DNA from: Acidobacteriota bacterium
GTDB taxonomy: Bacteria; Acidobacteriota; Holophagae; Holophagales; Holophagaceae
Direction: 5' to 3'
Assembly: GCA_021794095.1 (NCBI GenBank)
Contig: JAJYRN010000012.1
Location: forward strand, 1 to 64,000
Length of the DNA: 64,000 nt
The notes under the pieces were generated by a model. The model saw nothing but the letters and a program-made list of their open reading frames with translations. It had not been told where the DNA came from and did no database searches. Positions 5,332 through 22,836 of the stretch are shown here, piece by piece. The position numbers and the translations under genes were made by a program. Position 1 is the stretch's first letter. Each line of letters begins with the position of its first letter.

Positions 5332-5382
5332 AAGCTGACCTGTCCTTGATGCTCGCCAAGGCAGAAGGCAGGTCAGCTTTTT
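5332..5382 (+). terminator. Rho-independent terminator after the OmpA-barrel gene
   Basis: AAGCTGACCTG and CAGGTCAGCTT form a perfect 11-bp stem around a 26-nt loop, and the second arm runs into TTTTT. It sits 38 nt past the stop at 5294, so it should end the lipoprotein-OmpA transcript. The loop is longer than usual. Confidence 0.75.
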
Positions 5383-5435
5383 CCCCATTCCACGTTCGCG
5401 GCCGATGCGCGTCATCGCCCGCCCAGGAGGCGTTC

Positions 5436-5744
5436 ATGACCATCCACCAGATTCCGGAACCCCGCCCCAACATTGAACCCAAGCCCAGCGAATATCCTCA
5501 ACCTGCCACGCCCAGCCCGGATCCCGACACTGGTGACACCCCGCATGCCTGGGAAATGACCGCCTCGAGGAAGGTGGATGACCTCTCCAGGCACGAATCC
5601 AAACACGATGCCAAGCACGACCCAAGCCGTGACGCCAAGCACGACTCGAAGCATGACTCCAGGCAGAAGCCGGAGAATGCCGTCCCGCATGAAGCCCATC
5701 AGCAGCCGGGTACGAGGCCTCTGCCAGAACACGCGAAGAAATAG
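5436..5744 (+). CDS. Small hydrophilic His/Asp/Lys-rich repeat protein, unknown function
   Basis: 102 residues from ATG 5436, favoured by CCAGGAGG 5 nt upstream; the earlier in-frame start (5346) would overlap the terminator. The N-terminal half is rich in proline and glutamate. Residues ~47-75 contain a degenerate K/R-H-D repeat (SKHDAKHDPSRDAKHDSKHD). There is no signal peptide or membrane segment. The spaced His/Asp pattern could bind divalent metals or make the protein disordered; both are guesses. I recognise no family. It is the first gene of the stress-type cassette. Confidence 0.6.
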   Translation: MTIHQIPEPRPNIEPKPSEYPQPATPSPDPDTGDTPHAWEMTASRKVDDLSRHESKHDAKHDPSRDAKHDSKHDSRQKPENAVPHEAHQQPGTRPLPEHAKK

Positions 5745-5804
5745 ACCCCCCCCATTAACCCCTTTTGAAGAGCCGCCCACTCCGGGCAGAAATGCGAACG
5801 CGCC

Positions 5805-6578: not shown

Positions 6579-6588
6579 TGCCATAACC

Positions 6589-6621
6589 GGCTTCCTGGTC
6601 CGCTGGGCGGACCGGGAAGCC
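6589..6621 (+). terminator. Strong hairpin after the BON gene
   Basis: GGCTTCCTGGTCCGC and GCGGACCGGGAAGCC form a 15-bp stem with one mismatch and a 3-nt loop, 10 nt beyond the BON stop codon. No T-run follows, so it may protect the 3' end or attenuate rather than terminate fully. Confidence 0.5.
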
Positions 6622-6638
6622 CTTCAAGGGAGTCCTCC

Positions 6639-6920
6639 ATGCTGGAGAACAGAAAGGCCTACGAAAGCAAGTTGGAGGCGCAGTTGGCGCAATGGGAGGC
6701 CGAGATAGATGTTCTCAAGGCCAAGGCCAAACGCCAGGGTGTTGATGCGATGGTCGGCTACGACAAAACCATTGATGCCCTTCAGCGCAAGCGCGAGGAG
6801 ATTAAGAATCACCTGCTCAATCTGAAGGGCGCCAGCGATGACACCTGGGAAAGCATGAAGGCCGGAGCGGAACAGGCATGGCTTGAACTCAAGGCCATGG
6901 TCCGCGGTTCCTCTGAATAA
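6639..6920 (+). CDS. Small coiled-coil stress-type protein (sll1863-like)
   Basis: 93 residues, ATG 6639 with AAGGGAG upstream. Almost the whole chain is amphipathic helix rich in Lys, Glu and Ala (KLEAQLAQWEAEIDVLKAKA), predicted coiled coil, with no signal or membrane segment. It resembles the short coiled-coil proteins often annotated as sll1863-family stress-response proteins that occur beside BON and Dps genes. Molecular function is unknown; the name rests on composition, length and neighbourhood. Confidence 0.72.
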   Translation: MLENRKAYESKLEAQLAQWEAEIDVLKAKAKRQGVDAMVGYDKTIDALQRKREEIKNHLLNLKGASDDTWESMKAGAEQAWLELKAMVRGSSE

Positions 6921-6972
6921 GACTGAATCCTTCGGAACCCATAACCATGCAGTCACCAGTTCGGAGCGCACC

Positions 6973-7122
6973 ATGTTATGGACCATCGCAGTCGTTCTCC
7001 TTGTTCTCTGGGCCTTGGGCCTCGTCAGCGCCTACACGATGGGGGGCTTCATCCATGTCCTGCTCGTGGTTGCCATTGTCATCATCCTGATCCGCGTCAT
7101 CCAGGGCCGGCGGGTTCTCTAG
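6973..7122 (+). CDS. lmo0937-family small membrane protein
   Basis: 49 residues from ATG 6973, preceded by GGAG 6 nt upstream. The ORF-track version from 6883 adds an unlikely N-terminus overlapping the previous gene. It has two hydrophobic helices (LWTIAVVLLVLWALGLVSAY and FIHVLLVVAIVIILIRVI) joined by a TMGG turn, ending IQGRRVL. This closely fits the lmo0937 family of tiny inner-membrane proteins, whose function is not known. It is shorter than most gene-finder cut-offs and belongs with the surrounding stress cassette. Confidence 0.85.
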   Translation: MLWTIAVVLLVLWALGLVSAYTMGGFIHVLLVVAIVIILIRVIQGRRVL

Positions 7123-7159
7123 CCGGCGGTCGGTTGATTTCTAGCCCCAGGAGCCTGTC

Positions 7160-7651
7160 ATGAACCGCAACCATCCACCCGTTGAACACCCGCGCCTCGA
7201 TGCCAAGACCACGGAGGAGTTGATGGATCTTCTCAACCAGTCCCTGGTTGACACGCTCGATCTCGCCTACCGGACCCGGCGGGCCCGCTGGAATGCGCGA
7301 AGCCCGGATTCATGGGGCCTCAACTTGCTGTTCGATCAGCTCTACGGCCAACTGGCTATCTATGGTGACGGATTCGCTGAGCGGGTGGCCATCGCGGGGG
7401 GCCATCACCTTGATACCAACCATGCCGTAGGCAGCGCAGCTGGCCTGATCGAGTACCCATTGGATGCGCTCGACGGCACGCTCCAACTGGGCACCCTGGT
7501 TGACCACTACGGTGAATACGCGGGGGGGATGCGTAGGGGTGTCCGGAAGGCCGGGAAACTCGGCGATCAGCCTACGGCGGATTTCTACACGATTGTCTGC
7601 CATGCCATGGACAAGGCCCTTTGGATGCTTACAGCCCATGAAGACGTCTGA
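7160..7651 (+). CDS. Dps-like ferritin-fold protein with altered ferroxidase residues
   Basis: 163 residues, ATG 7160 after CCAGGAG. Length and helical pattern fit Dps (LLNQSLVDTLDLAYRTRR, LFDQLYGQ, FAERVAIAGG). In Dps the dinuclear iron site uses two His, an Asp and a Glu. Here the first His position reads RARWN (Arg) and the second reads GLNLLFDQLY (Asn), while the later D and E of YGDGFAERV remain. Iron oxidation at the usual site is therefore doubtful; shell formation or DNA binding may persist. The cassette context points to stationary-phase or oxidative stress. Confidence 0.8.
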   Translation: MNRNHPPVEHPRLDAKTTEELMDLLNQSLVDTLDLAYRTRRARWNARSPDSWGLNLLFDQLYGQLAIYGDGFAERVAIAGGHHLDTNHAVGSAAGLIEYPLDALDGTLQLGTLVDHYGEYAGGMRRGVRKAGKLGDQPTADFYTIVCHAMDKALWMLTAHEDV

Positions 7652-7672
7652 AACCCCAGCCAGGAGACCACC

Positions 7673-8062
7673 ATGTCCATCGCGCTCGAACTTACGTTCA
7701 TTGTAGTTCTGGTCGCACTCACAGTCGGCCTGGTGCGTCTGCTGGTCCAGTTGCGTCGAACAGCCCAGGGCATTGACGTCTTTCTTTTATCCTCCAGTAA
7801 AGATCTGTCCCAGATTGCAGAGGACGTTCATGCTTCCCGGTTGCGGATGGATCTCTTGGCGGCCGCGCTCCAGATCTCCCTGGAAGACCTTTCGGGTTTG
7901 ACCGGGATGATTCGGGACTTGGGACGCGCGGCGCAGGATCTCAATCGGCGCTACCACGGCGCTATCGAATCGGCCTCCCGCACTCTCGGCGGCATCGTCG
8001 GAGGAATCAGCGCTGTGCTGACCTTCTTCAAACGCAGGCAACCCCCTCACGTACACGAATAG
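7673..8062 (+). CDS. DUF948-like membrane-anchored coiled-coil protein
   Basis: 129 residues, ATG 7673 after CCAGGAG. One N-terminal transmembrane helix (LTFIVVLVALTVGLVRLLV) is followed by a cytoplasmic helical region (SSSKDLSQIAEDVHASRL) and a short hydrophobic glycine-rich patch before a basic tail. The layout is that of DUF948/YtxG-type proteins, which often sit next to YtxH-type genes, as here (12 nt upstream of one). Function is unknown; it is associated with general stress in Firmicutes. Confidence 0.7.
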   Translation: MSIALELTFIVVLVALTVGLVRLLVQLRRTAQGIDVFLLSSSKDLSQIAEDVHASRLRMDLLAAALQISLEDLSGLTGMIRDLGRAAQDLNRRYHGAIESASRTLGGIVGGISAVLTFFKRRQPPHVHE

Positions 8063-8073
8063 GAGCAACACTC

Positions 8074-8349
8074 ATGAGTCAGGAAAACACCTCCTACACG
8101 GGCCCCATGCTGCTGACGTTCCTGGCCGGCGCCACGATAGGCGCACTGCTGGTGGCCCTCACCACACCCAAGACCGGCCCTGAACTCCGTGGGGATCTCA
8201 AGGATCTCGCCCGCCGTGCCAAGCGGAAGGCCGGGGATCTGGCAGATGAGGCCAGCCTAGGCTGGGAAGACATGAAGGAGCGCACAGCCCTCGCCGCCAG
8301 CGACCTCAGGCGCGGTATGACTGATGCGGCCAACGATCTGCGGGGCTGA
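8074..8349 (+). CDS. YtxH-domain protein
   Basis: 91 residues, ATG 8074 with AGGAG 9 nt upstream. An N-terminal helix with the glycine-rich GATIGALLVALTTPKTG signature of YtxH proteins is followed by a charged helix (LRGDLKDLARRAKRKAG). These are membrane-anchored stress proteins of unknown biochemical role. It forms a YtxG/YtxH-like pair with the gene just upstream. Confidence 0.85.
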   Translation: MSQENTSYTGPMLLTFLAGATIGALLVALTTPKTGPELRGDLKDLARRAKRKAGDLADEASLGWEDMKERTALAASDLRRGMTDAANDLRG

Positions 8350-8364
8350 GCGCCTGGGATGCTC

Positions 8365-8385
8365 CACGCCCTATTCCAGGGCGTG
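8365..8385 (+). terminator. Short perfect hairpin after the YtxH gene
   Basis: CACGCCCT and AGGGCGTG form an 8-bp perfect stem with a 5-nt loop, 15 nt past the YtxH stop. A weak pyrimidine/T stretch (GGTTCTTTCT) comes some 9 nt later, so it is at best a partial terminator. Confidence 0.4.
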
Positions 8386-8486
8386 ATCAAGGTTCTTTCT
8401 GCCTCCGTGAATGCTTCCCGGAACCATCCGGCTCCGGAATTCGAACCATCCCCCATCCACCGATGGACGCCCTGAAAGGTGCGAAA

Positions 8487-9935
8487 ATGAAAAGCTGGAA
8501 TGCAATCCCGTTCGCGGCGGTGGCTTTGGTCATCCAGGCTCAGCCGCCGCCACCCATTCCCAACCCCGCCCCACCGGCCTCGGTGCCTCTTTATCGGGTG
8601 ACCGTCGTGCAGGGTTCGGCCAAGGCCATCAACTACCGGAATCTTAAGTCCTCCACGAAGATAGACCTGAAAGGCACGATTCTGCTGCCGGCCGCCTCGG
8701 GTATGGCGACCGTGAAGAACAAGGACGGGGCCCTCCAGATCATCGCGAAGGTCAAAAACCTTCCGCCCGCCTCTACCTTCGGCGGGGAATTCCTGACCTA
8801 TGTGATGTGGGGCATCTCCCCGGAAGGCCGGGCGACCAATCTGGGTGAACTCGTCCTCAAGCACGGCAAGTGCAAGGTCAAGGTCACGGAGGCGCTCCAG
8901 ACCTTCGGTCTGGTGGTGACCGCTGAGCCGTACTTTGCCGTGAGCCAGCCCAGTGATGTGGTGGTTATGGAAAATGCGGTCCGAAAGGAATCTCGTGGTC
9001 AGGTCGAGCTTATTGACGCCAAGTACGAGCTGTTGAAGCGGGGCCAATACACCTTGAACCTGCCCTCCACGGCGCCCATGGTCATGGATGACAAAACGCC
9101 TTTTGCCGTCTATCAGGCTCGCAATGCAGTGCGCATCGCCGAAGCAGCGGGCGCTTCAACCTACGCGCCCGAGGCGCTGGGGAAGGCCCAGGGCTACCTC
9201 AACCAGTCCGAGAACGAAGAGGGAAAGAAGGGAAGCCGGATTCTGATGGCCCGGGAAGCCGTCCAGAGGGCCGAGGATGCCCGTTTGATCTCGGTGCAGC
9301 GGCAGGAAGCGGAGCGGGTGGCCTGGGAACAGAAGGTGGCTCAGGAGAAACTTGATGATTCCAGGCGAGCCGCGGCCCGAGCCAGCGATCAGGCTGCCGC
9401 CGCCCAGGCTGCTGCCCAGGAGCAAACCCAGCAGGCCGAAAATGAGAATGACCGATTGCGTTCCAAGAATGAAGGACTGCAATCCAAGAACGAAGATCTG
9501 AGAAGCAAGTTGATGGAGCAGCTCAATGCCATCCTCCAGACCCGCGCCACGGTCCGGGGATTGATTGTGAACATGTCTGGGGTGCTGTTCCAGAACGGGA
9601 AGGCGGTGCTGCTGCCTGCCGCGCGGGAGAAGCTTTCGAAAATCGCCGGGATCCTGTCAACCCACAAGGGGTTGATGATCGAGGCGGACGGCTTCACGGA
9701 CAGCACGGGTAGCGATGCGCTCAACCAGCGTCTGTCGGAGCAGCGGGCCCAAAACACCAAGGATTATCTGGTCAGCCAAGGGGTCTCGGTTGATGCCATC
9801 ACCTCAAAGGGTTTCGGCAAGAGCGACCCCATCGCTTCCAATAACACAGACGCCGGACGAAGGGAAAACCGGCGGGTGGAGTTGGTGGTCTCGGGTGAGG
9901 GTCTCACCGACCCAACGGCCGCTGCTGGGCTGTGA
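8487..9935 (+). CDS. OmpA-family protein with DUF4398-like helical region
   Basis: 482 residues from ATG 8487, chosen because a signal peptide (MKSWNAIPFAAVALVIQAQ) starts there; an upstream in-frame ATG is at 8463. A beta-rich domain at ~30-160 (anti-sigma-K/CHRD-like appearance, uncertain) is followed by a helical DUF4398-like segment (ARNAVRIAEAAGASTYAPEA) and a long Gln/Ala/Glu coiled coil. An OmpA domain occupies ~356-475 (EADGFTDSTGSDALNQRLSEQR) with its Asp and Arg retained. Probably periplasmic or outer-membrane, binding peptidoglycan. It closes the run of small stress genes. Confidence 0.82.
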   Translation: MKSWNAIPFAAVALVIQAQPPPPIPNPAPPASVPLYRVTVVQGSAKAINYRNLKSSTKIDLKGTILLPAASGMATVKNKDGALQIIAKVKNLPPASTFGGEFLTYVMWGISPEGRATNLGELVLKHGKCKVKVTEALQTFGLVVTAEPYFAVSQPSDVVVMENAVRKESRGQVELIDAKYELLKRGQYTLNLPSTAPMVMDDKTPFAVYQARNAVRIAEAAGASTYAPEALGKAQGYLNQSENEEGKKGSRILMAREAVQRAEDARLISVQRQEAERVAWEQKVAQEKLDDSRRAAARASDQAAAAQAAAQEQTQQAENENDRLRSKNEGLQSKNEDLRSKLMEQLNAILQTRATVRGLIVNMSGVLFQNGKAVLLPAAREKLSKIAGILSTHKGLMIEADGFTDSTGSDALNQRLSEQRAQNTKDYLVSQGVSVDAITSKGFGKSDPIASNNTDAGRRENRRVELVVSGEGLTDPTAAAGL

Positions 9936-9956
9936 GTACGGATCCTTCCCAGTGAG

Positions 9957-10007
9957 GCGAGCCCCCCCGAATTTCCGGTCTGCCAAGCGGAGATCCCGGG
10001 GGCTCGC
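9957..10007 (+). terminator. GC-rich hairpin after the second OmpA gene
   Basis: GCGAGCCCCC and GGGGGCTCGC form a perfect 10-bp stem enclosing 31 nt, 22 nt beyond the stop codon. No T-run follows. It could be a weak terminator or 3' stabiliser. Confidence 0.45.
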
Positions 10008-10171
10008 CGGTGGTGCCAGAGGCATAGGCAAGCTACTGGCCTTAAGAATCAGATCCGAAGTCGAAGTCCTTGGATGAACACACTCCCGGCACCAGGCGCG
10101 GCATAGATTTCGCCCGAATGCGCCGCTGGGTCAATCAACGCACCACTTGAAACCAAAAAAGGAGTTGAACC

Positions 10172-10714
10172 ATGGTCGAGTCCAACGCAGTGGTTGGCAT
10201 TTTCGATTCCCATGTTCAGGCAGAAACAAGCATCAAGGAACTTCAGCTCGCTGGGTTCGACATGAAAAGACTGTCCATTGTGGGGAAGGACTACCATACC
10301 GAGGAGCATGTGGTGGGTTTCTACAATTCCGGTGACCGCATGAAGCTGTGGGGCAAGCGCGGCGCCTTCTGGGGCGGGTTTTGGGGGATGCTCTTCGGGT
10401 CGGCCCTGTTCGTCGTCCCCGGGCTCGGACCCCTCATCGTGTTCGGTCCCCTGGTCGGCTGGATCATCGGAGCCATGGAAGGTGCCATGGTGGTAGGCGG
10501 GTTCGGGATCTTGGCCGCCGGCCTCTATAGCATTGGCATTCCCAAGAACAGTTGCCTGCAGTACGAAACCGCAGTCCGATCCGACAAGTTCCTCGTGATC
10601 GCCCACGGTGCCGAGGCCGAAGCGGCCAAGGCCAAGAGCATCCTCCAGATGGCTGGCGCCGCGCACATCGGCGTGCATTCGGAGGCATGCCGGCAGTTGA
10701 TGAGTCAGGCCTGA
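10172..10714 (+). CDS. Stress-type membrane protein (DUF1269 / GSP17M-like)
   Basis: 180 residues, ATG 10172 with AAAGGAG 8 nt upstream. The N-terminal ~45 residues (VVGIFDSHVQAETSIKELQ) resemble the GSP17M/ferredoxin-like fold of general stress proteins. A glycine-rich double membrane segment follows at ~65-125 (GFWGMLFGSALFVVPGLGPL), and the C-terminal region (KFLVIAHGAEAEAAKAKSIL) repeats the same fold. The family is found in stress clusters; its biochemical role is unknown. A 92-nt gap separates it from the dehydrogenase gene. Confidence 0.75.
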   Translation: MVESNAVVGIFDSHVQAETSIKELQLAGFDMKRLSIVGKDYHTEEHVVGFYNSGDRMKLWGKRGAFWGGFWGMLFGSALFVVPGLGPLIVFGPLVGWIIGAMEGAMVVGGFGILAAGLYSIGIPKNSCLQYETAVRSDKFLVIAHGAEAEAAKAKSILQMAGAAHIGVHSEACRQLMSQA

Positions 10715-10806
10715 AGAAAGCCTGTTTCCCTTGCCAGATCTGAACGGACATCGGGGGTTAAATCCGGAATTGATCGCCGTACCAAAGCACGAACGGAGTT
10801 CCAAGC

Positions 10807-11850
10807 ATGAAAGCACTTGTCTACAACGGTCCCGGGAAACGCGCCTTGGAAGAGAGACCCAAGCCCCTCATCACGGCGCCTACCGATGCCATCGTCAAGA
10901 TCTCTAAGACGACGATCTGTGGCACGGATCTGCACATTCTGAAAGGGGATCTATCAACGGTCACGGTAGGCCGGATCCTTGGCCACGAAGGGGTCGGCGT
11001 GGTCGAACAGGTCGGCGGGAGTGTCGCGAACTTCAGCGTGGGGGACCGGGTACTCATCTCGTGCATCACCTCCTGCGGAAGGTGCCTCAACTGCAAGAAA
11101 GGGATGTACTCCCATTGCGAGAATGGCGGAGGCTGGATTCTCGGAAACCTGATTGATGGAACCCACGCGGAATATGTCCGGATTCCCTTCGCAGACAACA
11201 GCCTGTACCCGATTCCCACGGGAGCCGATGAAGAAGCGCTGGTCATGTTGAGCGACATTCTTCCCACCGGATTCGAATGTGGCGTCATCAAGGGGCAGGT
11301 CCAGCCCGGCGACACCGTGGCGATTGTCGGCGCAGGCCCCATCGGGTTGGCGGCCCTGCTTACGGCCCAATTCTTCTCTCCGGCGGAACTCATCATGATT
11401 GACGTTGATGACAATCGCCTGGAAGCAGCCAAAGCCTTCGGGGCGACGAAGGTTGTCAACAACGGCGATGGCAAGGCCGCCGAGAAGGTGATGGCCCTCA
11501 CCGGCAACCGAGGCGTGGATGTCGCGATCGAGGCCATTGGGATCGCAGCGAGCTTCGATGTCTGCCAGGCCATCGTAACGGCGGGGGGCCACATCGCCAA
11601 CATTGGCGTACATGGCAAGCCGGTCCAGTTGAACCTGGACAAGCTCTGGTCTCAGAACATCACCCTCACCACCCGCCTGGTGGATACCGTGACAACCCCG
11701 ATGCTTCTGAAAACCGTGTTGTCGGCCAGGATCAACCCGAAGCTTTTGATCACGCATCACTTTGCATTGAATGACCTGATGCGGGCCTACGACACGTTTG
11801 GCAATGCAGGGAAAGAACACGCCCTGAAAGTGATGATTACCCATGCCTAG
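10807..11850 (+). CDS. Zinc-dependent alcohol dehydrogenase, MDR superfamily
   Basis: 347 residues, ATG 10807 with CGGAG upstream. Catalytic zinc residues are visible in TICGTDLH and GHEGVGVV. The structural zinc loop CGRCLNCKKGMYSHC has four cysteines, and the NAD(P)-binding loop is VAIVGAGPIGLA followed by acidic MIDVDD, suggesting NAD. It probably oxidises an alcohol or reduces an aldehyde; the substrate cannot be read from sequence. Its stop overlaps the next start by 8 nt, so it is co-transcribed with a phospholipase D-like gene. Confidence 0.9.
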   Translation: MKALVYNGPGKRALEERPKPLITAPTDAIVKISKTTICGTDLHILKGDLSTVTVGRILGHEGVGVVEQVGGSVANFSVGDRVLISCITSCGRCLNCKKGMYSHCENGGGWILGNLIDGTHAEYVRIPFADNSLYPIPTGADEEALVMLSDILPTGFECGVIKGQVQPGDTVAIVGAGPIGLAALLTAQFFSPAELIMIDVDDNRLEAAKAFGATKVVNNGDGKAAEKVMALTGNRGVDVAIEAIGIAASFDVCQAIVTAGGHIANIGVHGKPVQLNLDKLWSQNITLTTRLVDTVTTPMLLKTVLSARINPKLLITHHFALNDLMRAYDTFGNAGKEHALKVMITHA

Positions 11851-13321
11851 TATGACGGCTCCATTGCGGGTTCCTGGTCCCCTGCCCGGGCGCCGGATGG
11901 CCCGCTGGATGCGTCAGCGTCGGCATGTGACCGTAGGCCTTCGGAGTCCAGGCCGGTCACAGGTTATGTGGTTCTGGGCCTTGGCCGCCTGCCTGGTGAA
12001 TTCAGCCTGCGCCCGCCTGCCGGATATGAGTCTGAAGGCGCCCAAGAACGTGCCTACCAAGCCCAGCGTCATTGACGGTCAGGGGGCGTTGAATGAACGG
12101 GAGGCCGCTTCGGCGCTTGCCAAGCGCCTGGGGCATACCAGGGCCGACGCCAAGGCCCTGGCCGCGCTCGAAGAAGCCGCTTCGGGCCGGCCGCTCATCA
12201 CAGGAAACAACGTCAGGCTGCTGTTCGATGGCCCCAGCATCATCACGGCGATGTTGACCGCGGTGGCGGAGGCCAAGGACACCATCAATCTGGAGACCTA
12301 CCTCTTCGATCAGGATCCGCTCGGCCTGAAGTTCGCCGATGAACTCATCGCCAAGCAGAAGGAAGGCGTTCAGGTCAGCATCATCTATGACTGCGTCGGA
12401 ACGCTGGGCACCCCACAGGCCTTCTTTGACCGGATGCAGGCGGCCGGCATCCGGCTGTTGCCCTACCACCCCGTGAGCCCGTTCCACCGGCTGGGCCATT
12501 GGCGCATCAACAACCGCGATCACCGGAAAATCCTGGTGGTGGACGGGAGGGTGGCCTTCACCGGCGGCGTGAACATCACCGCCGCCTATTCCAGCAGTTC
12601 GCTATTCAGATCCCATGCCAAGAACCGGACCTCTGTGGGCTGGCGGGAAACCCATATCCAGATCGAAGGCCCCGCCGTGACCGCACTGCAATGGCTGTTT
12701 CTGGATAACTGGGCGAGCCAGAAGGAAGGCGTGCTTCCAGACCGGGACTACTTCCCCCAGCAGCCAGCGGTCGGCAACAAGGTCGTGCGGGTGCTTGGCA
12801 GTCAGCCCGGCGGCGGCTACGAGATCTACAAGACCTATTTCCTGGCCATCCAGAGCGCGACGAAATCCATCCACATCACCGCTGCGTACTTCGCCCCTGA
12901 CGTACAGCTCCTGCGGGCTCTCGCTGATGCCGCCAGGCGCGGCGTGGATGTGAAACTCATTCTGCCCAGCATCTCTGATGGCGGGCCCATCTTGTATGCC
13001 GGACAGTCCTTCTATACCCAGATGCTCAAGGCCGGCATCTCGGTCTACGAGCTGAAGACTTCCGTGCTGCACGCCAAGACGGCGGTCATTGATGGCAGCT
13101 GGTCCACGGTGGGCTCCACCAACCTGGATATGCGGAGCTTCCTCCATAACAAAGAGGTCAACGTCGTTGTGCTGGGGAACGATTTTGGACGGGAGATGGA
13201 AAGCGCCTTTCAGGACGATCTCAAGGATACGAACAGAATCACCCTGGAACAGTGGAAGCAGCGACCCCTGGCCCAGCGCCTCAAAGAATGGCTATCCCGG
13301 CTTTTTTCGTATTGGCTATGA
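11843..13321 (+). CDS. Phospholipase D-like / cardiolipin synthase family protein with N-terminal anchor
   Basis: About 492 residues from ATG 11843, overlapping the dehydrogenase by 8 nt; no start has a clear ribosome site, and ATG 11966 (MWFWALAACLVNSACARL) would give a lipoprotein-like signal. Both HKD motifs are intact: HRKILVVDGRVAFTGG at ~224 and HAKTAVIDGSWSTVGSTN at ~410, each with the downstream GG or GSxN. This is the two-domain arrangement of bacterial cardiolipin synthases and PLD transphosphatidylases. Likely role: phospholipid remodelling at the membrane, fitting the envelope-stress context. Confidence 0.88.
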   Translation: MPSMTAPLRVPGPLPGRRMARWMRQRRHVTVGLRSPGRSQVMWFWALAACLVNSACARLPDMSLKAPKNVPTKPSVIDGQGALNEREAASALAKRLGHTRADAKALAALEEAASGRPLITGNNVRLLFDGPSIITAMLTAVAEAKDTINLETYLFDQDPLGLKFADELIAKQKEGVQVSIIYDCVGTLGTPQAFFDRMQAAGIRLLPYHPVSPFHRLGHWRINNRDHRKILVVDGRVAFTGGVNITAAYSSSSLFRSHAKNRTSVGWRETHIQIEGPAVTALQWLFLDNWASQKEGVLPDRDYFPQQPAVGNKVVRVLGSQPGGGYEIYKTYFLAIQSATKSIHITAAYFAPDVQLLRALADAARRGVDVKLILPSISDGGPILYAGQSFYTQMLKAGISVYELKTSVLHAKTAVIDGSWSTVGSTNLDMRSFLHNKEVNVVVLGNDFGREMESAFQDDLKDTNRITLEQWKQRPLAQRLKEWLSRLFSYWL

Positions 13322-13408
13322 GGCCAGCAGAACGGACGAACTTCGTTCAGAACGTGTCAGACGCACTGGGCGAAGGACACAGGACATCACCGACAAGGAG
13401 GCAGCATT

Positions 13409-14164
13409 ATGAAACCAATAGGCAAGATTCAGACAGGCCTGCTCCTGCTGCTTCTCGGAGCAGCAGTGCCAGCATTCGCTCACCAGGACCGGGGCGACGG
13501 AAAGGCCAAGCACCCCAAGGAGCAGCAACAGCCCCAACGAGGGGAACAGCAGGCTCAACCGAATCAGGCGCGACCTGGGCCCACAAGGCAGGCGCAACCG
13601 TCCCATGCCCAGGGCCAGCCGGTCCGGCCTCAGCAGCTCCCACCGCCGACGAGAGGGCAACAGCAACAGCGGCAGCGTGAGCAGCAGGTCAGGGCGCAAC
13701 AAGAACGGCAGCGTCAGGGCCAGGCCAGGGCGCACCAGGAACAGCAGCGACAGCGTCAGGCCAAGCCATTTGCACAGCAGGAGCACCGCGCGAACGCAGC
13801 TGAACAGCGTGGCATCTGGCAGGCGCGCCGGGCTCGGAACTGGCGAACCGAACATCGCAACTGGGACCAGCGTGGTGGCTACACCGGCTATCGCATTCCA
13901 GAGAGTCGTTACCGCGGCCATTTCGGTCCGAGTCGCGTGTTCCGCCTCCGGAGCTATCCCTTGATCATGTTTGGCGGGTACCCCCGCTTCCAGTTCGACG
14001 GCTTCTGGTTCAGTGTCATGGATCCGTGGCCTGAATACTGGTCGAACAACTGGTACGACAACGATGATGTCTATATCAGCTACGCTGGAGATGGCTATTA
14101 CCTCTACAATCGCCGGCATCCCCAGGACCGCATCGCCATCTCGGTTTCCATCCAGATGAATTGA
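13409..14164 (+). CDS. Secreted Gln/Arg-rich protein with aromatic C-terminal domain
   Basis: 251 residues, ATG 13409 with AAGGAGG 6 nt upstream. The signal peptide ends near AVPAFA-HQ (residue 24). Residues ~25-135 are low-complexity Gln/Arg/Pro (for example QQRQRQAKPFAQQE), likely disordered and strongly basic. Residues ~140-250 are rich in Trp, Tyr and Phe (WPEYWSNNWYDNDDVYISY), the look of RcnB/YXWGXW-type periplasmic proteins. Function unknown. The repetitive central part may be expandable. The divergent 132-nt gap downstream holds no gene. Confidence 0.7.
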   Translation: MKPIGKIQTGLLLLLLGAAVPAFAHQDRGDGKAKHPKEQQQPQRGEQQAQPNQARPGPTRQAQPSHAQGQPVRPQQLPPPTRGQQQQRQREQQVRAQQERQRQGQARAHQEQQRQRQAKPFAQQEHRANAAEQRGIWQARRARNWRTEHRNWDQRGGYTGYRIPESRYRGHFGPSRVFRLRSYPLIMFGGYPRFQFDGFWFSVMDPWPEYWSNNWYDNDDVYISYAGDGYYLYNRRHPQDRIAISVSIQMN

Positions 14165-14296
14165 AAATCGGGCCTTCAATGTCTTTGTCTTTAATGTGCT
14201 GACTCCGTGGTGCTTCCCGCGGATGCCTAGCATCGCAACGGCAAGCAGTTGAATGAGAACGCACCAGGTGTTCTTCGTTCTGGGGAGATTGGCACC

Positions 14297-17200
14297 ATGG
14301 CCGTGAAGAAGAAAAAGGAAATGGCGAAACAGAACCCGCCTCCGCTCCCCGGAGAGCGGATCGAACTGACGCCATCCCCGGCCGAGACGGATCCCGCCCC
14401 TTCAGAGAAAACAGCCTCCCACAGGCACGAACCTCAGAAGGCCCGATTCCCCATCGTTGGCATCGGCGCTTCGGCCGGGGGACTGGCGGCCTTCGAAGCG
14501 TTCTTTTCCGGCATGCCCGCTGAGACCGATCCGGGCATGGCCTTTGTCCTGGTGCAACACCTGGCCCCGGACCACAAGAGCATCCTCACCGATCTCATCC
14601 GGCGCTACACCCGCATGCAGGTCTTCGAGGTCGAAGACGGAATGGAGGTGAAGCCGAACTGCGCCTACATCATTCCGCCGAACCGGGACATGGCATTCCT
14701 GAATGGCGCCCTCCAATTGCTGGAACCCGCCGCGCCCCGCGGCCAGCGTCTTCCGATTGATTTCTTCTTCCGCTCTCTCGCCCAGGACCAGCATGAGCGG
14801 GCCATCTGCATCGTGCTTTCCGGTACCGGCAGCGATGGCACCCAGGGCCTCCGGGCCATCAAGGGTGAGGGCGGCATGGTGATGGCGCAAAATCCCGGCT
14901 CCAGCGAGTACGACGGCATGCCCCGCAGCGCCATCGCCACCGGTCTCGTGGATTTTGAACTTCCCCCTGCGGAGATGCCCGCCCAACTCATAGGCTACGT
15001 GGCGCATGCTTTCGGCCGGCCCCCCCGCGCGGCCACGGCTCAGGCGCCTAAGACCGATAGCGCGTTGAACAAGCTCTTCGTCTTGCTGCACGTCCAGACT
15101 GGCCACGACTTTTCCAATTACAAGCCGAGCACCATTCATCGCCGGATTGAGCGCCGTATGGCTGTTCATCAGATTGATACCCTAGATGAATATGTCAAAT
15201 ACGCCCAGCACACACAGGCTGAGGTAGACGGCCTCTTCAGAGATCTGCTGATCGGAGTGACCAATTTCTTCCGTGACCCGGAGGCCTTCACGGCGCTTGA
15301 AGAACAGGTCATTCCAAGGCTCTTCGCAGGAAAACCTGGGGGCGCCGCGGTTCGTGTCTGGTCGCCGGGCTGTTCCACCGGGGAAGAGGCCTACTCCATC
15401 GCCATCCTCTTGCAGGAACGCATGGAGGCGCTGAAGCAAAGCCATGCTCTGCAAGTCTTCGCTACAGATCTGGACGGCCAGGCAATTGCCACGGCTCGCG
15501 CCGGTCTCTATTCAACCAGCATTGCCGCCGATCTCTCGCCGGAGCGGCTCTCTCGATTCTTCACGGCCGAGCCCGACGGCAGTGCCTATCGCATCCAAAA
15601 AATCATTCGCGACATGGTGATCTTTTCCGAGCACGACCTGATCAAGGATCCGCCCTTTTCGAAGCTCGATTTGATCAGTTGCCGAAATCTCCTGATCTAC
15701 ATGGGCAGTGAGTTGCAGAAGAAGCTCATTCCCTTGTTCCACTACGCGCTGAACCCAGGCGGGTTCTTATTTCAGGGCACGTCAGAGACCGTGGGTGATT
15801 TTGGTGATCTTTTTTCGGCGCTGGATAGGAAAGCGAAACTGTATCAGCGCAAGGAAAATGTCCATGGCGCGCAGCGCACAGCCATGGGCAGGCTCCTACC
15901 CCCGGTGTCCGCGATGGAACTGTCGCACCAGCGGATACCGGGTAAAGCTGCCTTGTCCATCAAACAACCCATGCGTGAGCTGGCAGAGCAAACGCTCTTG
16001 CAGCTGGTCGCCCCGGCCGGCGCGCTCATCAATGACCGGGGCGACATCCTCTACCTTCATGGCCGCACCGGCTTGTACCTGGAACCGACTCCGGGTGAGG
16101 CCGGAATCAATAACATCCTGAAGATGGCGCGCGAAGGGTTGCGCCACGAATTGACCACGGCCCTGCACAAAGCCATCGGAACCGAAGTCCCCGTGCGTTG
16201 TTTGGGGCTGCGCGTCAAAACGAATGGCCATTTCACCACAGTCAACCTGACCGTCAGTCCGGTGACGGCCGTGCCAGGCTCGAAACCTGAGGCGCCCCTG
16301 TATATGGTTATCCTGGAGGAGGCACCTTCGGCGGATCCCCAATCTCCTGATCAGGTTCCGGGGGATGACTCCACGTCAGCGAATGCGGATGGAAGGCTCG
16401 AATCGCTCAAGCGGCAGCTGCAGGCCAAGGAGGAGTATCTCAAGGCCTCGAACGAAGAGCTGGAGACCTCCAACGAAGAACTGAGATCCTCAAATGAGGA
16501 AATGCAGTCTGTGAATGAAGAATTGCAGTCCACCAACGAGGAACTGGAAACCTCCAAGGAGGAACTTCAATCGGTGAATGAGGAGCTGGCCACCGTCAAC
16601 GCGGAGTTGCAGACCAAGGTGGTGGATCTGTCGCGCCTCAATAACGACATGAACAATCTGTTGGCGGGTACCGGGATCGCCACGGTCTTTGTGGATCATC
16701 AGCTGCGCATCCTGCGTTTCACGCCTACCGCCACCCAGATCATCAATCTGATTCTGGGCGATGTGGGTCGGCCAGTGGGCCACATCGTCTCCAAGTTGGT
16801 GGGCTATGACAGGCTGGTCCAGGATGTAAAGGCCGTGCTGGCGACGCTGACTCCCAAGGAAGTGGAGGTGCAGACAGCGGCTGGCAGGTGGTACGTGATG
16901 CGCATCCAGTTGTACCGAACCCTCGACAATGTAATCGAGGGCGCAGTCATCACCTTCGTGGACATCACGGAGATGAAACGGACGCAGGCCGCGCTACGGG
17001 AGAGCGAGTCCCTCTTCCAGCAGGTCGCGGCGGCACTGCCCCAATTTGTATGGACGAGCCGTCCCGATGGCTTTTGCGATTACTTCAGCCCCCAGTGGAT
17101 TAAGTACACCGGCGTCCCGGAGGACCAACAGTTGAGTTCCAGGTGGCTCGAATTGATCCATCCCGAGGACCGGGGCACGGTGATGGGACTTTGGAACGCA

Positions 17201-17425
17201 GCGATCGCCACAGGAGAGCCCCTCGATACTGGATTCCGGCTTCGCCATCACGATGGCACCTATCGAGGATTCGACGCGCGGGCGAGTGCCTTGCGCAATG
17301 CCGATGGCCGCATCGTGAAATGGCTGGGCCAGGCGACGGAAAACACGGGGCGCTGGCCACAGGACAAGGCCGAGGCGCACCGGAAAGAACATGGACCTGG
17401 GAAGAGGGTGGTGTCCAATGAATAG
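14297..17425 (+). CDS. CheB-CheR-PAS fusion protein (methylesterase + methyltransferase + PAS)
   Basis: 1042 residues from ATG 14297 (GGGGAG upstream) rather than TTG 14249. The CheB-type methylesterase at ~51-235 keeps the catalytic Ser (GIGASAGG), His (VLVQHLAPD) and Asp (LSGTGSDG). CheR follows at ~256-520 (VWSPGCSTGEEAYSIAIL, SAM site). A heptad coiled coil of SNEEL-type repeats spans ~700-785, then a PAS_10-like domain and a PAS domain (~903-1018). It has no receiver and no kinase domain; a histidine kinase gene overlaps its 3' end by 8 nt and may supply output. Fusions of this type are common sensory proteins whose methylation targets are unknown. Confidence 0.9.
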   Translation: MAVKKKKEMAKQNPPPLPGERIELTPSPAETDPAPSEKTASHRHEPQKARFPIVGIGASAGGLAAFEAFFSGMPAETDPGMAFVLVQHLAPDHKSILTDLIRRYTRMQVFEVEDGMEVKPNCAYIIPPNRDMAFLNGALQLLEPAAPRGQRLPIDFFFRSLAQDQHERAICIVLSGTGSDGTQGLRAIKGEGGMVMAQNPGSSEYDGMPRSAIATGLVDFELPPAEMPAQLIGYVAHAFGRPPRAATAQAPKTDSALNKLFVLLHVQTGHDFSNYKPSTIHRRIERRMAVHQIDTLDEYVKYAQHTQAEVDGLFRDLLIGVTNFFRDPEAFTALEEQVIPRLFAGKPGGAAVRVWSPGCSTGEEAYSIAILLQERMEALKQSHALQVFATDLDGQAIATARAGLYSTSIAADLSPERLSRFFTAEPDGSAYRIQKIIRDMVIFSEHDLIKDPPFSKLDLISCRNLLIYMGSELQKKLIPLFHYALNPGGFLFQGTSETVGDFGDLFSALDRKAKLYQRKENVHGAQRTAMGRLLPPVSAMELSHQRIPGKAALSIKQPMRELAEQTLLQLVAPAGALINDRGDILYLHGRTGLYLEPTPGEAGINNILKMAREGLRHELTTALHKAIGTEVPVRCLGLRVKTNGHFTTVNLTVSPVTAVPGSKPEAPLYMVILEEAPSADPQSPDQVPGDDSTSANADGRLESLKRQLQAKEEYLKASNEELETSNEELRSSNEEMQSVNEELQSTNEELETSKEELQSVNEELATVNAELQTKVVDLSRLNNDMNNLLAGTGIATVFVDHQLRILRFTPTATQIINLILGDVGRPVGHIVSKLVGYDRLVQDVKAVLATLTPKEVEVQTAAGRWYVMRIQLYRTLDNVIEGAVITFVDITEMKRTQAALRESESLFQQVAAALPQFVWTSRPDGFCDYFSPQWIKYTGVPEDQQLSSRWLELIHPEDRGTVMGLWNAAIATGEPLDTGFRLRHHDGTYRGFDARASALRNADGRIVKWLGQATENTGRWPQDKAEAHRKEHGPGKRVVSNE

Positions 17426-18770
17426 CCAGGATAGCGAGGCCAAAATGGCCGCCGGCCTGCGTTGGCGAGCCGAGGAAGTGGCCCGTGAGAAAGGTTCCGC
17501 GTTCTCAGATAAGACGGAGATCATCTCTCCCCGGGATATGCGGCGGACGCTCCACGAATTGCGTGTGCATCAAATCGAGCTGGAGATGCAGAACGAGGAA
17601 TTGCGGCGCGTTCAGGCCGAGCTGAATGCCTCACGGGTCCGCTATTTCGACCTGTATGACCTGGCGCCGGTCGGCTACTGCATCCTCTCCATGGAGGGGC
17701 TTGTCCTGGAAATCAACCTCACCGCGGTCACGCTGCTGGGGGTGCCCCGGGCCGTGGTCCTCCAACAGCCGATCACGCGGTATATCCACAAGGAGGATCA
17801 GGACATCTACTACTTGCACCGCAAGCGGTTCCTGGAGACGGGTGAACCCTATGCGTGCGACCTGCGGATGGTGAGGACGGATGGGACGGTCTTCTGGGCG
17901 CATCTGGCGGCCATCTCCGCGCAGGATACCCATACGATCCTGAATCAGATTCCCGGCCGTGCGCTTGTGAGCCGCCTCGTGCTCAGCGACATCACGGGGC
18001 GCAAAGAGGCCGAGGAAGCCCGGTCCAGGCTCGAGGCCGAGCTTCAGAAGGCGCAGAAGATGAAGACCCTGGGCGTCCTTGCCGGCGGCATCGCCCACGA
18101 CTTCAACAACATCCTCACCGCGATCGTGGGCAACGCGAACCTGGGCCATGAAGCGGCAGAGGAAGGGCGCAAGGTGGATTCCTATTTCGAGGCCATCGAA
18201 AAGGCCGCCATGCGGGCGTCGGAACTCACCCGGCAAATGCTTGCCTACGCAGGCCAAGGGGCATTCGTGATGGGGAAGGTGGACGTCAACAGGGTGATCA
18301 AAGAGATCCTTCCGATCATCTCCGTCGCTCTCCACGGGAACGTGACCCTCCAGTGTGACCTGATGGACCCGCTTCCTTCCGTCATGGCAGATGCAACTCA
18401 GATCTTCCGGGTGATGACGAATCTGATCACGAACGGCCTGGAATCCATCTCCGAGAACGTGGAGGGCCGGGTTGCCATCCGGACGGGTGTGGAGGAGGTC
18501 AGTCAATCCGCCATCGAGTCCAACGCCTGGGCCCTGTCCGTCATTCCGGGACGCTATGTGACCCTGGAAGTGATGGATACGGGGGTGGGCATGGCTCCAG
18601 AGGTCGTGACCCAGGCCTTTGATCCCTTTTTCACGACGAGATTCACTGGCCGCGGGTTGGGGCTGGCCGCTGTGATCGGGATTCTCAGCAGCCACAGGGG
18701 CGGGATCTGTGTGCGGAGTGAACCCGGGCAGGGCACCTCCTTCAAGGTGTTCCTACCCGAAGAGGCCTGA
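17418..18770 (+). CDS. PAS-domain sensor histidine kinase
   Basis: 450 residues from ATG 17418, which overlaps the CheB-CheR stop (ATGAATAG), implying translational coupling. An N-terminal helix (HELRVHQIELEMQNEELRR) leads into a PAS domain at ~65-190 (YDLAPVGYCILSMEG). HisKA follows at ~214 (LAGGIAHDFNNILTA, His present), then HATPase at ~330-450 with DTGVGMAPEV and GRGLGLAAV. No receiver domain and no membrane segment, so it is cytoplasmic. No response regulator gene is adjacent. It probably works with the CheB-CheR-PAS protein upstream. Confidence 0.9.
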   Translation: MNSQDSEAKMAAGLRWRAEEVAREKGSAFSDKTEIISPRDMRRTLHELRVHQIELEMQNEELRRVQAELNASRVRYFDLYDLAPVGYCILSMEGLVLEINLTAVTLLGVPRAVVLQQPITRYIHKEDQDIYYLHRKRFLETGEPYACDLRMVRTDGTVFWAHLAAISAQDTHTILNQIPGRALVSRLVLSDITGRKEAEEARSRLEAELQKAQKMKTLGVLAGGIAHDFNNILTAIVGNANLGHEAAEEGRKVDSYFEAIEKAAMRASELTRQMLAYAGQGAFVMGKVDVNRVIKEILPIISVALHGNVTLQCDLMDPLPSVMADATQIFRVMTNLITNGLESISENVEGRVAIRTGVEEVSQSAIESNAWALSVIPGRYVTLEVMDTGVGMAPEVVTQAFDPFFTTRFTGRGLGLAAVIGILSSHRGGICVRSEPGQGTSFKVFLPEEA

Positions 18771-18877: not shown

Positions 18878-19033
18878 ATGCTCGGAACCATTTTGATCAT
18901 TGTCATCGTTCTAATGTTGGTTGGCGCCATCCCCAGATGGCCCCATAGCCGGGACTGGGGCTACTACCCGAGTGGGGGATTGGGACTGGTCCTGCTGGTT
19001 GTCATCATTCTGCTGCTCATGGGCCGACTATAA
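18878..19033 (+). CDS. DUF3309-family small membrane protein (absent from ORF track)
   Basis: 51 residues, ATG 18878, preceded by GGAAAGGAAGAAG. Two hydrophobic segments (LGTILIIVIVLMLVGA and GLGLVLLVVIILLLMG) flank the signature IPRWPHSRDWGYYPSGG, which fits DUF3309. It is too short for the ORF track. These tiny inner-membrane proteins are frequent beside stress genes; their function is unknown. An AT-rich stretch ending in TTTTTT right after the stop may terminate transcription. Confidence 0.88.
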   Translation: MLGTILIIVIVLMLVGAIPRWPHSRDWGYYPSGGLGLVLLVVIILLLMGRL

Positions 19034-19210
19034 AATATCTATAAATATATTTTTTGCCCCCATGAGTAGAACCCGCTTGGTCAACCTGCATGGTGCCGCC
19101 TTCCCTGGCGGCGCTGGGTTTCGTTCGGTGGATGGTTTCCCACCTCAGACAGCTCGCAAAGCCGCCCACCTCGGTCCCTTTGATGCACTCGCAAGGGATT
19201 TGGAGACATT

Positions 19211-19882
19211 GTGACGAGACCCATTGAACCTGATCGAGACACGGGCACTATCCCAACCGTCGCAGTCATTGTGGCCCATCCTGATGATGAGATCCTCTGG
19301 AGCGGTGGTCTTCTCCTCAGCCATCCCGAGTGGTCGCCGTTTATCCTGACCTTGTGCCGTGGTGAGGATCCTGACCGGGCACCCCGATTCGCGAGGGTTC
19401 TGGAGTGCCTGGGCTCGGAAGGGGCCATGGGGAATCTCGACGACGGGCCCGAGCAGGTTCCCATCCCTTTGGAGCAGGTGGAAGCCACGATTCTTTCCCT
19501 GCTGCCCAGGTTGGATTTCGATATCCTGCTCACCCACGCGCCCCAGGGCGAGTACACATGGCATCGCCGGCACGGTGAAGTGTCCCGGGCGATCCAGGAG
19601 CTATGGCGGTATGGGCGGCTTCGCGTCAGGTGCCTGTGGGAGTTCGCCTACGAGGATGGCGGTGGCGCCTATGCCCCGCGGCCCAGGCAGGACGCATCCG
19701 TCCTGCTCGACCTGCCAGGCCCGGTCTGGGCCAGGAAACAGGCGCTCATCACGGATGTCTACGGCTTCACGAAGACCAGTTGGGAGGCCCGCGCGGCCAC
19801 CCGCGCCGAGGCCTTCAACTGCTACCGGGATCCCGCAGCCATTCCCCTGGTGGCCGGAGAGGACTTGGAGCTGAGCCGATGA
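19211..19882 (+). CDS. PIG-L / LmbE-family deacetylase
   Basis: 223 residues from GTG 19211 (TTGGAGA upstream; no ATG fits). The zinc motif AHPDDE is at ~22-27, and the second His region HRRHGEV at ~118-124. Members remove acetyl groups from N-acetylglucosamine-type sugars in GPI, mycothiol, bacillithiol and natural-product pathways. Its stop overlaps the glycosyltransferase start (ATGA), so the two are translationally coupled, which suggests the enzyme acts on a GlcNAc-containing product of that transferase. Substrate is inferred only. Confidence 0.88.
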   Translation: MTRPIEPDRDTGTIPTVAVIVAHPDDEILWSGGLLLSHPEWSPFILTLCRGEDPDRAPRFARVLECLGSEGAMGNLDDGPEQVPIPLEQVEATILSLLPRLDFDILLTHAPQGEYTWHRRHGEVSRAIQELWRYGRLRVRCLWEFAYEDGGGAYAPRPRQDASVLLDLPGPVWARKQALITDVYGFTKTSWEARAATRAEAFNCYRDPAAIPLVAGEDLELSR

Positions 19883-21015
19883 AGATTCTCGTTCTTTACA
19901 CCCATCCGCCGGCTCCCGGGGGCTTGGCCACCCAGGGCGACCTCCTCTACAAGGGTTTGCTGGAAATTGGCGTAGACGCCCAGGCGGCTCACCTCAAATC
20001 GGATCTCGAAAAGGAGTGGTATTACCGCTGGTTCAAGCCCGATGCGGTGGTAGGCATCGGCTTCTGGGGGGACGTCCCCGACATCGTCCTCCATCCGCAG
20101 CGCTTCGGGATGCGGGCCGTGCCCTGGATTCTGGCGGATGGCTATGTGGCGAACTACCGGGATGTCCTGGATGCGATGCCCCTTATCCTGGTGACTTCGG
20201 ATTGGGTGCGGGAGACCTTCGTCAGGGATGGCGTGCGGGGCGACCACACCGTGACCCTGCCCATCGGCTGCGATACGGATGCCTTCATTCCCCGCAGTCC
20301 GGATGATCCGAAGGTGCGGGCGGTGCGGGAGGCCCTGGGCGTTCCCCAGACCGAACACCTGATCCTCACGGTGGGCGGCGACACTGCCTCCAAGGGAGGC
20401 CGCGAGGTCATGACGGCGCTGGCCAGCCTGGGGGACTCGGTGCCTCCCTGGCGATACGTCTGCAAGGTCTGGCCCCAGGAGCGGACCAACGTGCAGAACA
20501 AGCTCGACCTGGAACTGGCCCAGTCCCTCGGGATCCAGGACCGGGTGAGTTTCCAGATGCACCAGGTGTCACGGACCCTCATGCCGTACCTGCTGGCCGC
20601 CTGCGACATCTACGCCGGCCCCTCCAGGCTGGAGGGCTTCGGGATGTCCCAGGTGGAGGCCGGTGCCTGTGGGAAACCTGTCATAGGCATCCGGGCCATG
20701 GCCATGCTGGACACGCTGGTGCACGGCGAAACAGCTTTCCTGGCCAGGGTGGCCGAGGAAATCCGGATCACGGAGACCGTGCTGGGACCGGAATCGGGGT
20801 TCGAACCTGGCCATCGCGTGGTCTTCGAGAAGCCGCGTGTCTCGGATTACCGGGCCAGCTCCACGGATATCGCCGAGTACCTGAAGCTTCTGCTCAACGA
20901 TGCTGATCTCCGGCAACGGATGGGTGAGGCGGGCCGACGGAGGGCGGTGGAACGGTTCGACTACCGGCTCGTGGCCCGGCACCTTGTCGAGATTCTCAGT
21001 GAAAGGCGGGCTTGA
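19879..21015 (+). CDS. GT4-type glycosyltransferase
   Basis: 378 residues from ATG 19879 (ATGA overlap with the deacetylase); the ORF-track start at 19603 lies inside the deacetylase in another frame. The C-terminal GT-B half shows TVGGDTASKGG and the GT4 donor-binding motif PSRLEGFGMSQVEAGACGKPVI, with the ExxxxxE glutamates. The N-terminal half starts MKILVLYTHPPAPGG, typical of a GT-B acceptor domain. It transfers a nucleotide-activated sugar with probable retention; donor and acceptor are unknown. It lies between a sugar deacetylase and a glycosidase. Confidence 0.88.
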   Translation: MKILVLYTHPPAPGGLATQGDLLYKGLLEIGVDAQAAHLKSDLEKEWYYRWFKPDAVVGIGFWGDVPDIVLHPQRFGMRAVPWILADGYVANYRDVLDAMPLILVTSDWVRETFVRDGVRGDHTVTLPIGCDTDAFIPRSPDDPKVRAVREALGVPQTEHLILTVGGDTASKGGREVMTALASLGDSVPPWRYVCKVWPQERTNVQNKLDLELAQSLGIQDRVSFQMHQVSRTLMPYLLAACDIYAGPSRLEGFGMSQVEAGACGKPVIGIRAMAMLDTLVHGETAFLARVAEEIRITETVLGPESGFEPGHRVVFEKPRVSDYRASSTDIAEYLKLLLNDADLRQRMGEAGRRRAVERFDYRLVARHLVEILSERRA

Positions 21016-21016
21016 T

Positions 21017-22141
21017 ATGAACGCTTCCATCCAGGAAGCCAGGCACGCCGCGATGGATGTCCTGCTGCACAATGCTTCAGGCCCCTTCGAGGGGCTTCCC
21101 CGCACCGCAGGCTGGGGTTATCCGGAACCCTACACCCGGGATCTGCTCATCTCCGCCCTGGGCATTCTCGCCTCCGGGGATGAAGGACTTCTGCGCATCC
21201 TGCGCCGTGTGCTGGAGACCTTGGCCCTGAACCAGAGCCCGCGCGGCCAGGCCCCTTCCATGGTGCATGATCCGGAGAACCGCGGGGCCAGCGATACGAC
21301 GCCCCTTTTCCTCCTGATCCTGGGCCTGTACCGGCGCTACACAGGGGAGGCCACCTTCCTGGAGGAAGCTGGAACCAAGGCCCTTCGCTGGATGGACTAC
21401 CAGACCGTTGACGACCGGGAATTGGTGGGCCAGCAGCCCACCACCGATTGGCGGGATGAGCAGTGGGTGCTGGGCCATGGCCTCTATGTCAACGCACTCG
21501 TCCATGGCTATCTCAAGCAGCTGGGGCTGACCGAGCGGGCGGAGTCGCTGCGGGCCGCCGCGAACGACAAGGATGGACAGGGGTTTGTCACCCATGGCCA
21601 GCCCACCTATGCGCTCTGGTTCTTCAAGGTGCTCCGGAACAAGCGCAGTGACCTGCTCGGCAACAGCCTGGCCATCCTCACGGGACTCGCCGCTCCCGAT
21701 CTTGCGCGGGACATGGTGGCCTGGGTCGAGGCCCAGTGCGTGGAGCTGCGTGCGACCGGGCAACTCGCCTTGGATCTGCCGCCCTGCCTCTTCCCGTACG
21801 TGCTGCCGGGGGATCCCGACTGGCACGCCCGCTTCGGCATCTACAACCTGCCCGGGGACTATCACAATGGGGGGGTCTGGCCATTTGTCTGCGGGTTCTA
21901 TGTGGCGGCGCTCGTGGCCTGCGGCGAACAGCAGTTGGCGGAAAAAAAGCTCCTGGCACTGACCGCGCTGGTGCAGCCTTCCCGCAAGATGCCAGCCACC
22001 CATCCTGGGGCCTTCGGGTTCAACGAGTGGTTCCACGCCCAGGATGGCACTCCCGGGGGCGAGGACTGGCAGACCTGGTCTGCATCCATGTACCTCTACG
22101 CCGTGGCCTGCGTCGAGGCCGGGGAAGCCCTCTTCTTCTAG
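21017..22141 (+). CDS. (alpha/alpha)6-barrel glycosidase, GH100/neutral-invertase-like
   Basis: 374 residues from ATG 21017, one base past the glycosyltransferase stop, with GAAAGGCGGG upstream. Helical-barrel signatures: GYPEPYTRDLLISALGILA near residue 35, where the Asp of TRD matches the proposed acid of neutral invertases, and DYHNGGVWPFVCGFYVAA near 280, close to the YHNGGSWP motif of GH100. It could also be an amylo-alpha-1,6-glucosidase-type enzyme. No signal peptide, so it is cytoplasmic. Inferred role: trimming or recycling a sugar made by the two genes before it. Confidence 0.75.
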   Translation: MNASIQEARHAAMDVLLHNASGPFEGLPRTAGWGYPEPYTRDLLISALGILASGDEGLLRILRRVLETLALNQSPRGQAPSMVHDPENRGASDTTPLFLLILGLYRRYTGEATFLEEAGTKALRWMDYQTVDDRELVGQQPTTDWRDEQWVLGHGLYVNALVHGYLKQLGLTERAESLRAAANDKDGQGFVTHGQPTYALWFFKVLRNKRSDLLGNSLAILTGLAAPDLARDMVAWVEAQCVELRATGQLALDLPPCLFPYVLPGDPDWHARFGIYNLPGDYHNGGVWPFVCGFYVAALVACGEQQLAEKKLLALTALVQPSRKMPATHPGAFGFNEWFHAQDGTPGGEDWQTWSASMYLYAVACVEAGEALFF

Positions 22142-22821: not shown

Positions 22822-22836
22822 CGCGGAGCGCCGATC

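Follow-up and report, generated by a model that had tools for sequence, protein, structure and literature searches.

Three adjacent genes in the window analysed here (the whole 64,000-nt stretch of contig JAJYRN010000012.1 from a member of the Holophagaceae, Acidobacteriota), encoding a PIG-L de-N-acetylase, a GT4 glycosyltransferase and a GH100/GH63-like glycosidase, form one operon that is conserved in order across about ten phyla, far beyond what would be expected by chance. The operon is real and strongly conserved, and while the enzyme classes are all known, their combination is apparently new: among open-licence papers we found no relevant description of a PIG-L/GT4/GH100 operon. Three-enzyme cassettes kept over such distances usually represent one complete pathway, and since this triad has stayed together in the same order across about ten phyla, its likely task is to produce, modify and recycle a single small sugar compound. 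The reading that we favor, at a little under even odds (roughly 0.45), is that the operon serves a soluble, cytosolic amino-sugar glycoside, which the GT4 enzyme would build, the PIG-L protein would deacetylate and the glycosidase would recycle. Coordinates of the cassette and its surroundings are collected in Table 1.

Table 1. Features of the cassette and its upstream context, in window coordinates.
Feature	Position	Strand	Basis
Lower-GC stress-type gene island, context	725..18770	+	Pfam; base composition
Ice-binding-like (PF11999) protein with Big_5 repeats, start of the island	725-3742	+	Pfam
DUF3309 small membrane protein, directly upstream neighbour	18878..19033	+	Pfam PF11752, 85 bits
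GGAG ribosome-binding-like site, 5 bases 5' of the PIG-L GTG	19202..19205	+	Sequence
PIG-L (LmbE-like) de-N-acetylase, 223 aa, GTG start	19211..19882	+	Pfam PF02585; invariant HPDDE 23-27, H118/H121
GT4 retaining glycosyltransferase, 378 aa	19879..21015	+	Pfam PF00534; invariant K172, E252-x7-E260; GT-B model
GH100/GH63-like (alpha/alpha)6-barrel glycosidase, 374 aa, predicted inverting	21017..22141	+	Pfam PF12899; model; D147, E337

The gene arrangement given in a preliminary description of this DNA was confirmed: the three open reading frames at 19211-22141 are complete and co-directional, the PIG-L and GT4 genes overlap by four nucleotides (ATGA), and a single base (21016) lies between the GT4 stop and the glycosidase start. 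The cassette closes a plus-strand run extending over 725-22141; the DUF3309 gene just before it is a neighbour, for which we claim no membership of the cassette. No NCBIfam model names any of the three proteins, no Rfam match was found within 17000-24000, and a promoter and terminator scan gave nothing above chance. PADLOC returned 0 matches, no phage match was found and no GT4 relatives were seen in viral contigs, and we rejected a phage or defence origin for the cassette on these results.

An alignment of the glycosidase, run against 84,980 species genomes, yielded 382 relatives, of which we kept the best 80. Among these best 80 of 382, 77 lie with a GT4 gene and 70 with both partners, in the same order and on the same strand. 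Ten of the 80 lack PIG-L, eight of them being cut by a contig end; PIG-L is thus present in 70 of the 72 loci with room for it, the two exceptions (L075 and L077) carrying GT4 and glycosidase genes and no PIG-L although upstream DNA is available, as tblastn confirms. Going by record titles, which give 11 phylum labels and can be wrong for MAGs, the best 80 of 382 comprise 20 loci from Bacteroidota, 20 from Planctomycetota, 19 from Acidobacteriota, 7 from Chloroflexota, 6 from Verrucomicrobiota, 3 from Desulfobacterota, and one each from Spirochaetota, Hydrogenedentota, Aminicenantes, Kiritimatiellota and Proteobacteria. When 60 relatives were searched, each of the three proteins was found in the identical six same-genus genomes, with the genes in the same order at the loci inspected; this genus is Geothrix-like, its loci recurring in the species-genome scan as those of Geothrix rubra, G. 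limicola and G. fuzhouensis as well as Holophagaceae MAGs. A reverse search with the GT4 profile alone recovered the triad at 8/8 Acidobacteriota loci (8 of 199 genomes positive) and 5/5 Bacteroidota loci (5 of 297), the window's own genome being among the eight and the seed genome among the five. The low genome counts together with the complete triads at the GT4-selected loci show that the cassette is patchy in distribution and nearly indivisible.

GT4 and glycosidase pairwise identities correlate (r = 0.83, 68 loci), and the PIG-L and GT4 genes overlap by four nucleotides in 36 of 67 loci. Conservation is highest for GT4 (54-100% identity), with median pairwise identities of 66% for GT4, 62% for the glycosidase and 49% for PIG-L. 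In the GT4 tree, rows labelled Akkermansiaceae or Verrucomicrobiota (L040, L041, L043, L044, L045) fall inside the Holophagaceae clade at more than one place, a nesting that suggests transfer between phyla, with MAG binning errors as another possible cause. Distant relatives of the glycosidase on Deinococcus, Variovorax and Gemmatirosa plasmids (25-33% identity) occur without GT4 and PIG-L; those from Deinococcus (L028, L030) stand beside a ROK protein and a sugar ABC transporter, or beside a beta-N-acetylglucosaminidase.

All three proteins look cytosolic, no signal peptide being seen on any of them, and catalytically intact. The deacetylase contains both superfamily motifs (AHPDDE and H-x2-H), and its metal-binding and catalytic residues, H23-P-D-D-E27 and H118/H121, are invariant in 69 homologues. 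Its PF02585 score is nevertheless just under the cut-off (27.9 against 28.2 bits; 30.1 with neighbouring matches), a PDB sequence search found no match with either the single protein or a profile, and it carries HRRH where the usual PIG-L motif is HPDH. The weak score and the HRRH variant mean that its substrate may be other than GlcNAc. The GT4 protein matches Glycos_transf_1 with 72.9 bits and combines a GT-B fold (model pLDDT 90.8) with the E-x7-E motif of its class; G15, K172, K196, E252 and E260 are invariant in 76 homologues. Its best fold match is HepE, an exopolysaccharide enzyme, and the predicted fold places it also near the small-acceptor enzymes GlgM, MshA, BshA, SPS and TreT; NCBIfam gives weak matches to EpsE and TuaC.

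The Glyco_hydro_100 match of the glycosidase (31.2 bits, cut-off 23.6) covers residues 213-363 only, the C-terminal 40%, and an MGH1-like Pfam match stays below threshold (25.6 bits, cut-off 27). The model (pLDDT 90.6) is closest in fold to the GH100 invertases InvB and InvA and an Arabidopsis neutral invertase, followed by GH63 mannosylglycerate hydrolase and glucosylglycerate hydrolase. Y35, Y39, D42, D147, Y282, W288, E337, Q352 and W354 are invariant in 82 homologues. A PDB profile alignment sets E337 on the Glu of the alkaline invertase FPEYYDG motif, which we take to be Glu414 of the InvA catalytic pair Asp188/Glu414 (PMC6995568). In addition, Y35/Y39/D42, Y282/W288 and E337/Q352/W354 reproduce the spacing of Tyr36/Trp40/Asp43, Tyr375/Trp381 and Glu419/Gln434/Trp436 in glucosylglycerate hydrolase (PMC6608630), so that these residues may, judged by spacing, form an equivalent -1 subsite. 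D147 would be the likely acid, with D144 as an alternative, and E337 the putative base.

Based on these features we can present a rough proposal for what the operon does. The retaining GT4 enzyme would attach a sugar to a small acceptor through an alpha linkage, GlcNAc donated by UDP-GlcNAc being the most likely candidate, and PIG-L would remove the N-acetyl group to leave a free amine. The glycosidase, for which D147 is the likely acid and E337 the putative base, would hydrolyse the alpha-glycoside by inversion and so turn the product over, in the way that sucrose is handled by invertase and glucosylglycerate by its hydrolase. The product would probably serve as a solute for stress or reserve, synthesized and recycled as required. 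Precedents for parts of this scheme are sucrose-phosphate synthase with invertase, glucosylglycerate with its hydrolase, and BshA with BshB; together with the gene order, the translational overlap and the predicted cytosolic location, they support a logic of making, de-N-acetylating and cleaving. The earlier proposal of a GlcNAc-derived small molecule is reasonable in this light, given the cytosolic look of the proteins, the small-acceptor folds and the amino-sugar enzymes near some cassettes; its thiol part did not hold.

Genes next to the cassette in other genomes fit sugar recycling. Of the best 80 of 382 loci, 14 have a gene of GH130, a mannoside phosphorylase family, in the fetched flanks, and 16 have a second GT4 there; at least one of the two is present in 23 loci, in most cases in the same orientation as the cassette. 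From the 0-5 GH130 genes seen in each genome, a rough estimate puts the number expected by chance in the 827 kb read below one. In all three Desulfobacterota loci an SIS protein (GlmS/NagB-II-like) overlaps the start of the PIG-L - GT4 - GH series, and in two of the three a glucokinase and a GH130 gene follow the cassette; GH130 precedes it in two of three. A Dehalococcoidia locus has, between GT4 and glycosidase, a protein left unnamed by all Pfam and NCBIfam models, which we read as NagB-like. The GH130, second GT4, glucokinase and GlmS/NagB-II-like genes are all consistent with recycling.

Two further observations concern these neighbours. The second GT4 (L086:1079-3469, L064:1469-3805 and 14 more loci) often lies beside GH130, and its full-length versions have about 350-400 C-terminal residues that carry no family assignment. 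In Geothrix rubra (L037 7146-10628; G001:C2 607489-608163) the cassette is immediately followed by a GH130 gene in convergent orientation.

The main weakness of the amino-sugar reading lies in the identity of the sugar: GH130 genes in the flanks suggest mannose alongside glucosamine, and PIG-L is divergent. Its weak match, the two loci that do without it and HepE as the best fold match of the GT4 all count against the model. The weak PIG-L score and the two loci lacking the gene speak for a compatible solute or reserve glycoside that has no amino sugar, in which the GT4 and the glycosidase would make and break a glucoside or mannoside and PIG-L would act on some other N-acyl substrate or be a different amidase. 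Sucrose-phosphate synthase with invertase, and glucosylglycerate synthase with its hydrolase, are models for such a pair, and this reading agrees with a glycosidase closest to invertase and the mannosyl- and glucosylglycerate hydrolases and with the GH130 and second GT4 genes in the flanks. It accounts poorly for a PIG-L gene retained wherever there is room, save twice, with an invariant catalytic motif, or for the amino-sugar enzymes in some operons, and we consider it rather unlikely.

A salvage route would assign the glycosidase, GH130, kinase and isomerase to the breakdown of an imported or internal glycan, with GT4 and PIG-L acting on intermediates. The glucokinase, GlmS/NagB-II-like and GH130 genes beside the cassette in Desulfobacterota would suit it, as would the company that the distant Deinococcus plasmid glycosidases keep (ROK proteins, ABC sugar importers or a beta-N-acetylglucosaminidase). 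Those relatives, however, lack GT4 and PIG-L, no transporter is conserved in the cassette loci, and the best conserved member is the nucleotide-sugar GT4, which favours synthesis; salvage is therefore an unlikely account. Modification of a cell-surface polysaccharide or glycolipid is more doubtful again. It would explain the HepE match, the EpsE and TuaC hits and the sulfatase and DUF6600 neighbours seen in a few loci, but the EpsE and TuaC scores are far below their cut-offs and the glycosidase and deacetylase have no visible signal peptide. Neither the annotated window neighbours nor the recurrent annotated neighbours elsewhere include a flippase (Wzx), a polymerase (Wzy) or a lipid-carrier glycosyltransferase, and no sugar-phosphate transferase or anchor gene adjoins the cassette in the window or recurs at other loci.

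The preliminary description had likened the PIG-L/GT4 pair to those of glucosaminyl thiol synthesis, an analogy encouraged by the matching enzyme classes and by BshA and MshA among the GT4 fold neighbours. The source genome has its own set on contigs other than that of the cassette, however: BshA lies on C13 (496.6 bits), and BshC (C12:33185-33928) stands beside a canonical PIG-L, BshB (95 bits, C12:32406-32753; locus L116, G000:C12 27000-39000). The cassette GT4 reaches only 36.8 bits against the BshA model TIGR03999 (cut-off 273.7) and 61.8 against the MshA model TIGR03449 (cut-off 462.5). The genome search for bshC that had been proposed as a check thus found the gene, but away from the cassette and irrespective of it: BshC is present in 13/13 Geothrix-type genomes tested, six with the cassette and seven without, and was not found in three cassette genomes (G239, G240 and G242, from Phycisphaerales, Spirochaetota and Desulfobacula). 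From the separate bsh genes and this distribution it follows that the cassette is independent of bacillithiol. As had been noted, no ligase gene is nearby, and none occurs in any of the cassette loci. A bacillithiol- or mycothiol-like pathway is disfavoured by the dedicated bshA and bshB-bshC genes, the low BshA and MshA scores and a BshC that does not track the cassette, and we give it next to no probability.

For the physiological role of the amino-sugar glycoside, gene context suggests stress. Downstream of the ice-binding-like gene, 3663-18770 encodes two OmpA proteins, BON, ferritin/Dps-like, DUF948, YtxH, YflT, zinc alcohol dehydrogenase, PLD, CheB-CheR-PAS and histidine kinase proteins, followed by DUF3309. 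GC content in the island is mostly 0.58-0.63, compared with 0.65 in the cassette and 0.64-0.73 beyond 20 kb. Members of several island families are also found next to the cassette in Bacteroidota and in further Holophagaceae, and ice-binding-like Big_5 proteins lie near it in two Bacteroidota loci (L060 and L094). A bolder version of the proposal, which we hold only tentatively, is that a glucosamine-bearing and hence cationic compatible solute or reserve serves stress survival in about ten phyla, and that the glycosidase represents a new family or subfamily between GH100 and GH63. The cassette may lead to a sugar metabolite that is both new and widespread and to a glycosidase of new specificity; it also sets this GT4/PIG-L pairing apart from thiol synthesis, with which it is easily confused. 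With only three enzymes, apparently undescribed, it can be tested in vitro.

The proposed pathway shares parts with several known systems. In bacillithiol synthesis, BshA (GT4) places GlcNAc on a small acceptor and BshB (PIG-L) then de-N-acetylates the product; the cassette differs in having a glycosidase instead of the BshC ligase, in a genome with a full bsh set elsewhere. It also resembles the pseudodisaccharide step of aminoglycoside synthesis, where the GT4 enzymes NeoM and KanF transfer GlcNAc and a PIG-L enzyme deacetylates the soluble product, although a glycosidase is present here and no cyclitol or antibiotic-biosynthesis genes were seen near the cassette. With the GH100 alkaline/neutral invertases (Anabaena InvA and InvB, PDB 5goo and 5z74) the glycosidase shares the (alpha/alpha)6 barrel, as its best fold match, and the conserved catalytic Glu, whereas it is shorter (374 against about 430-460 residues), only 16-19% identical and matched by Pfam over the C-terminal 40%. 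The GH63 mannosylglycerate and glucosylglycerate hydrolases (PDB 4wvc and 5ohc), at 13-16% identity, have the same fold and a matching spacing of the putative -1 subsite residues (PMC6608630), and they show that a hydrolase can serve to recycle a stress solute.
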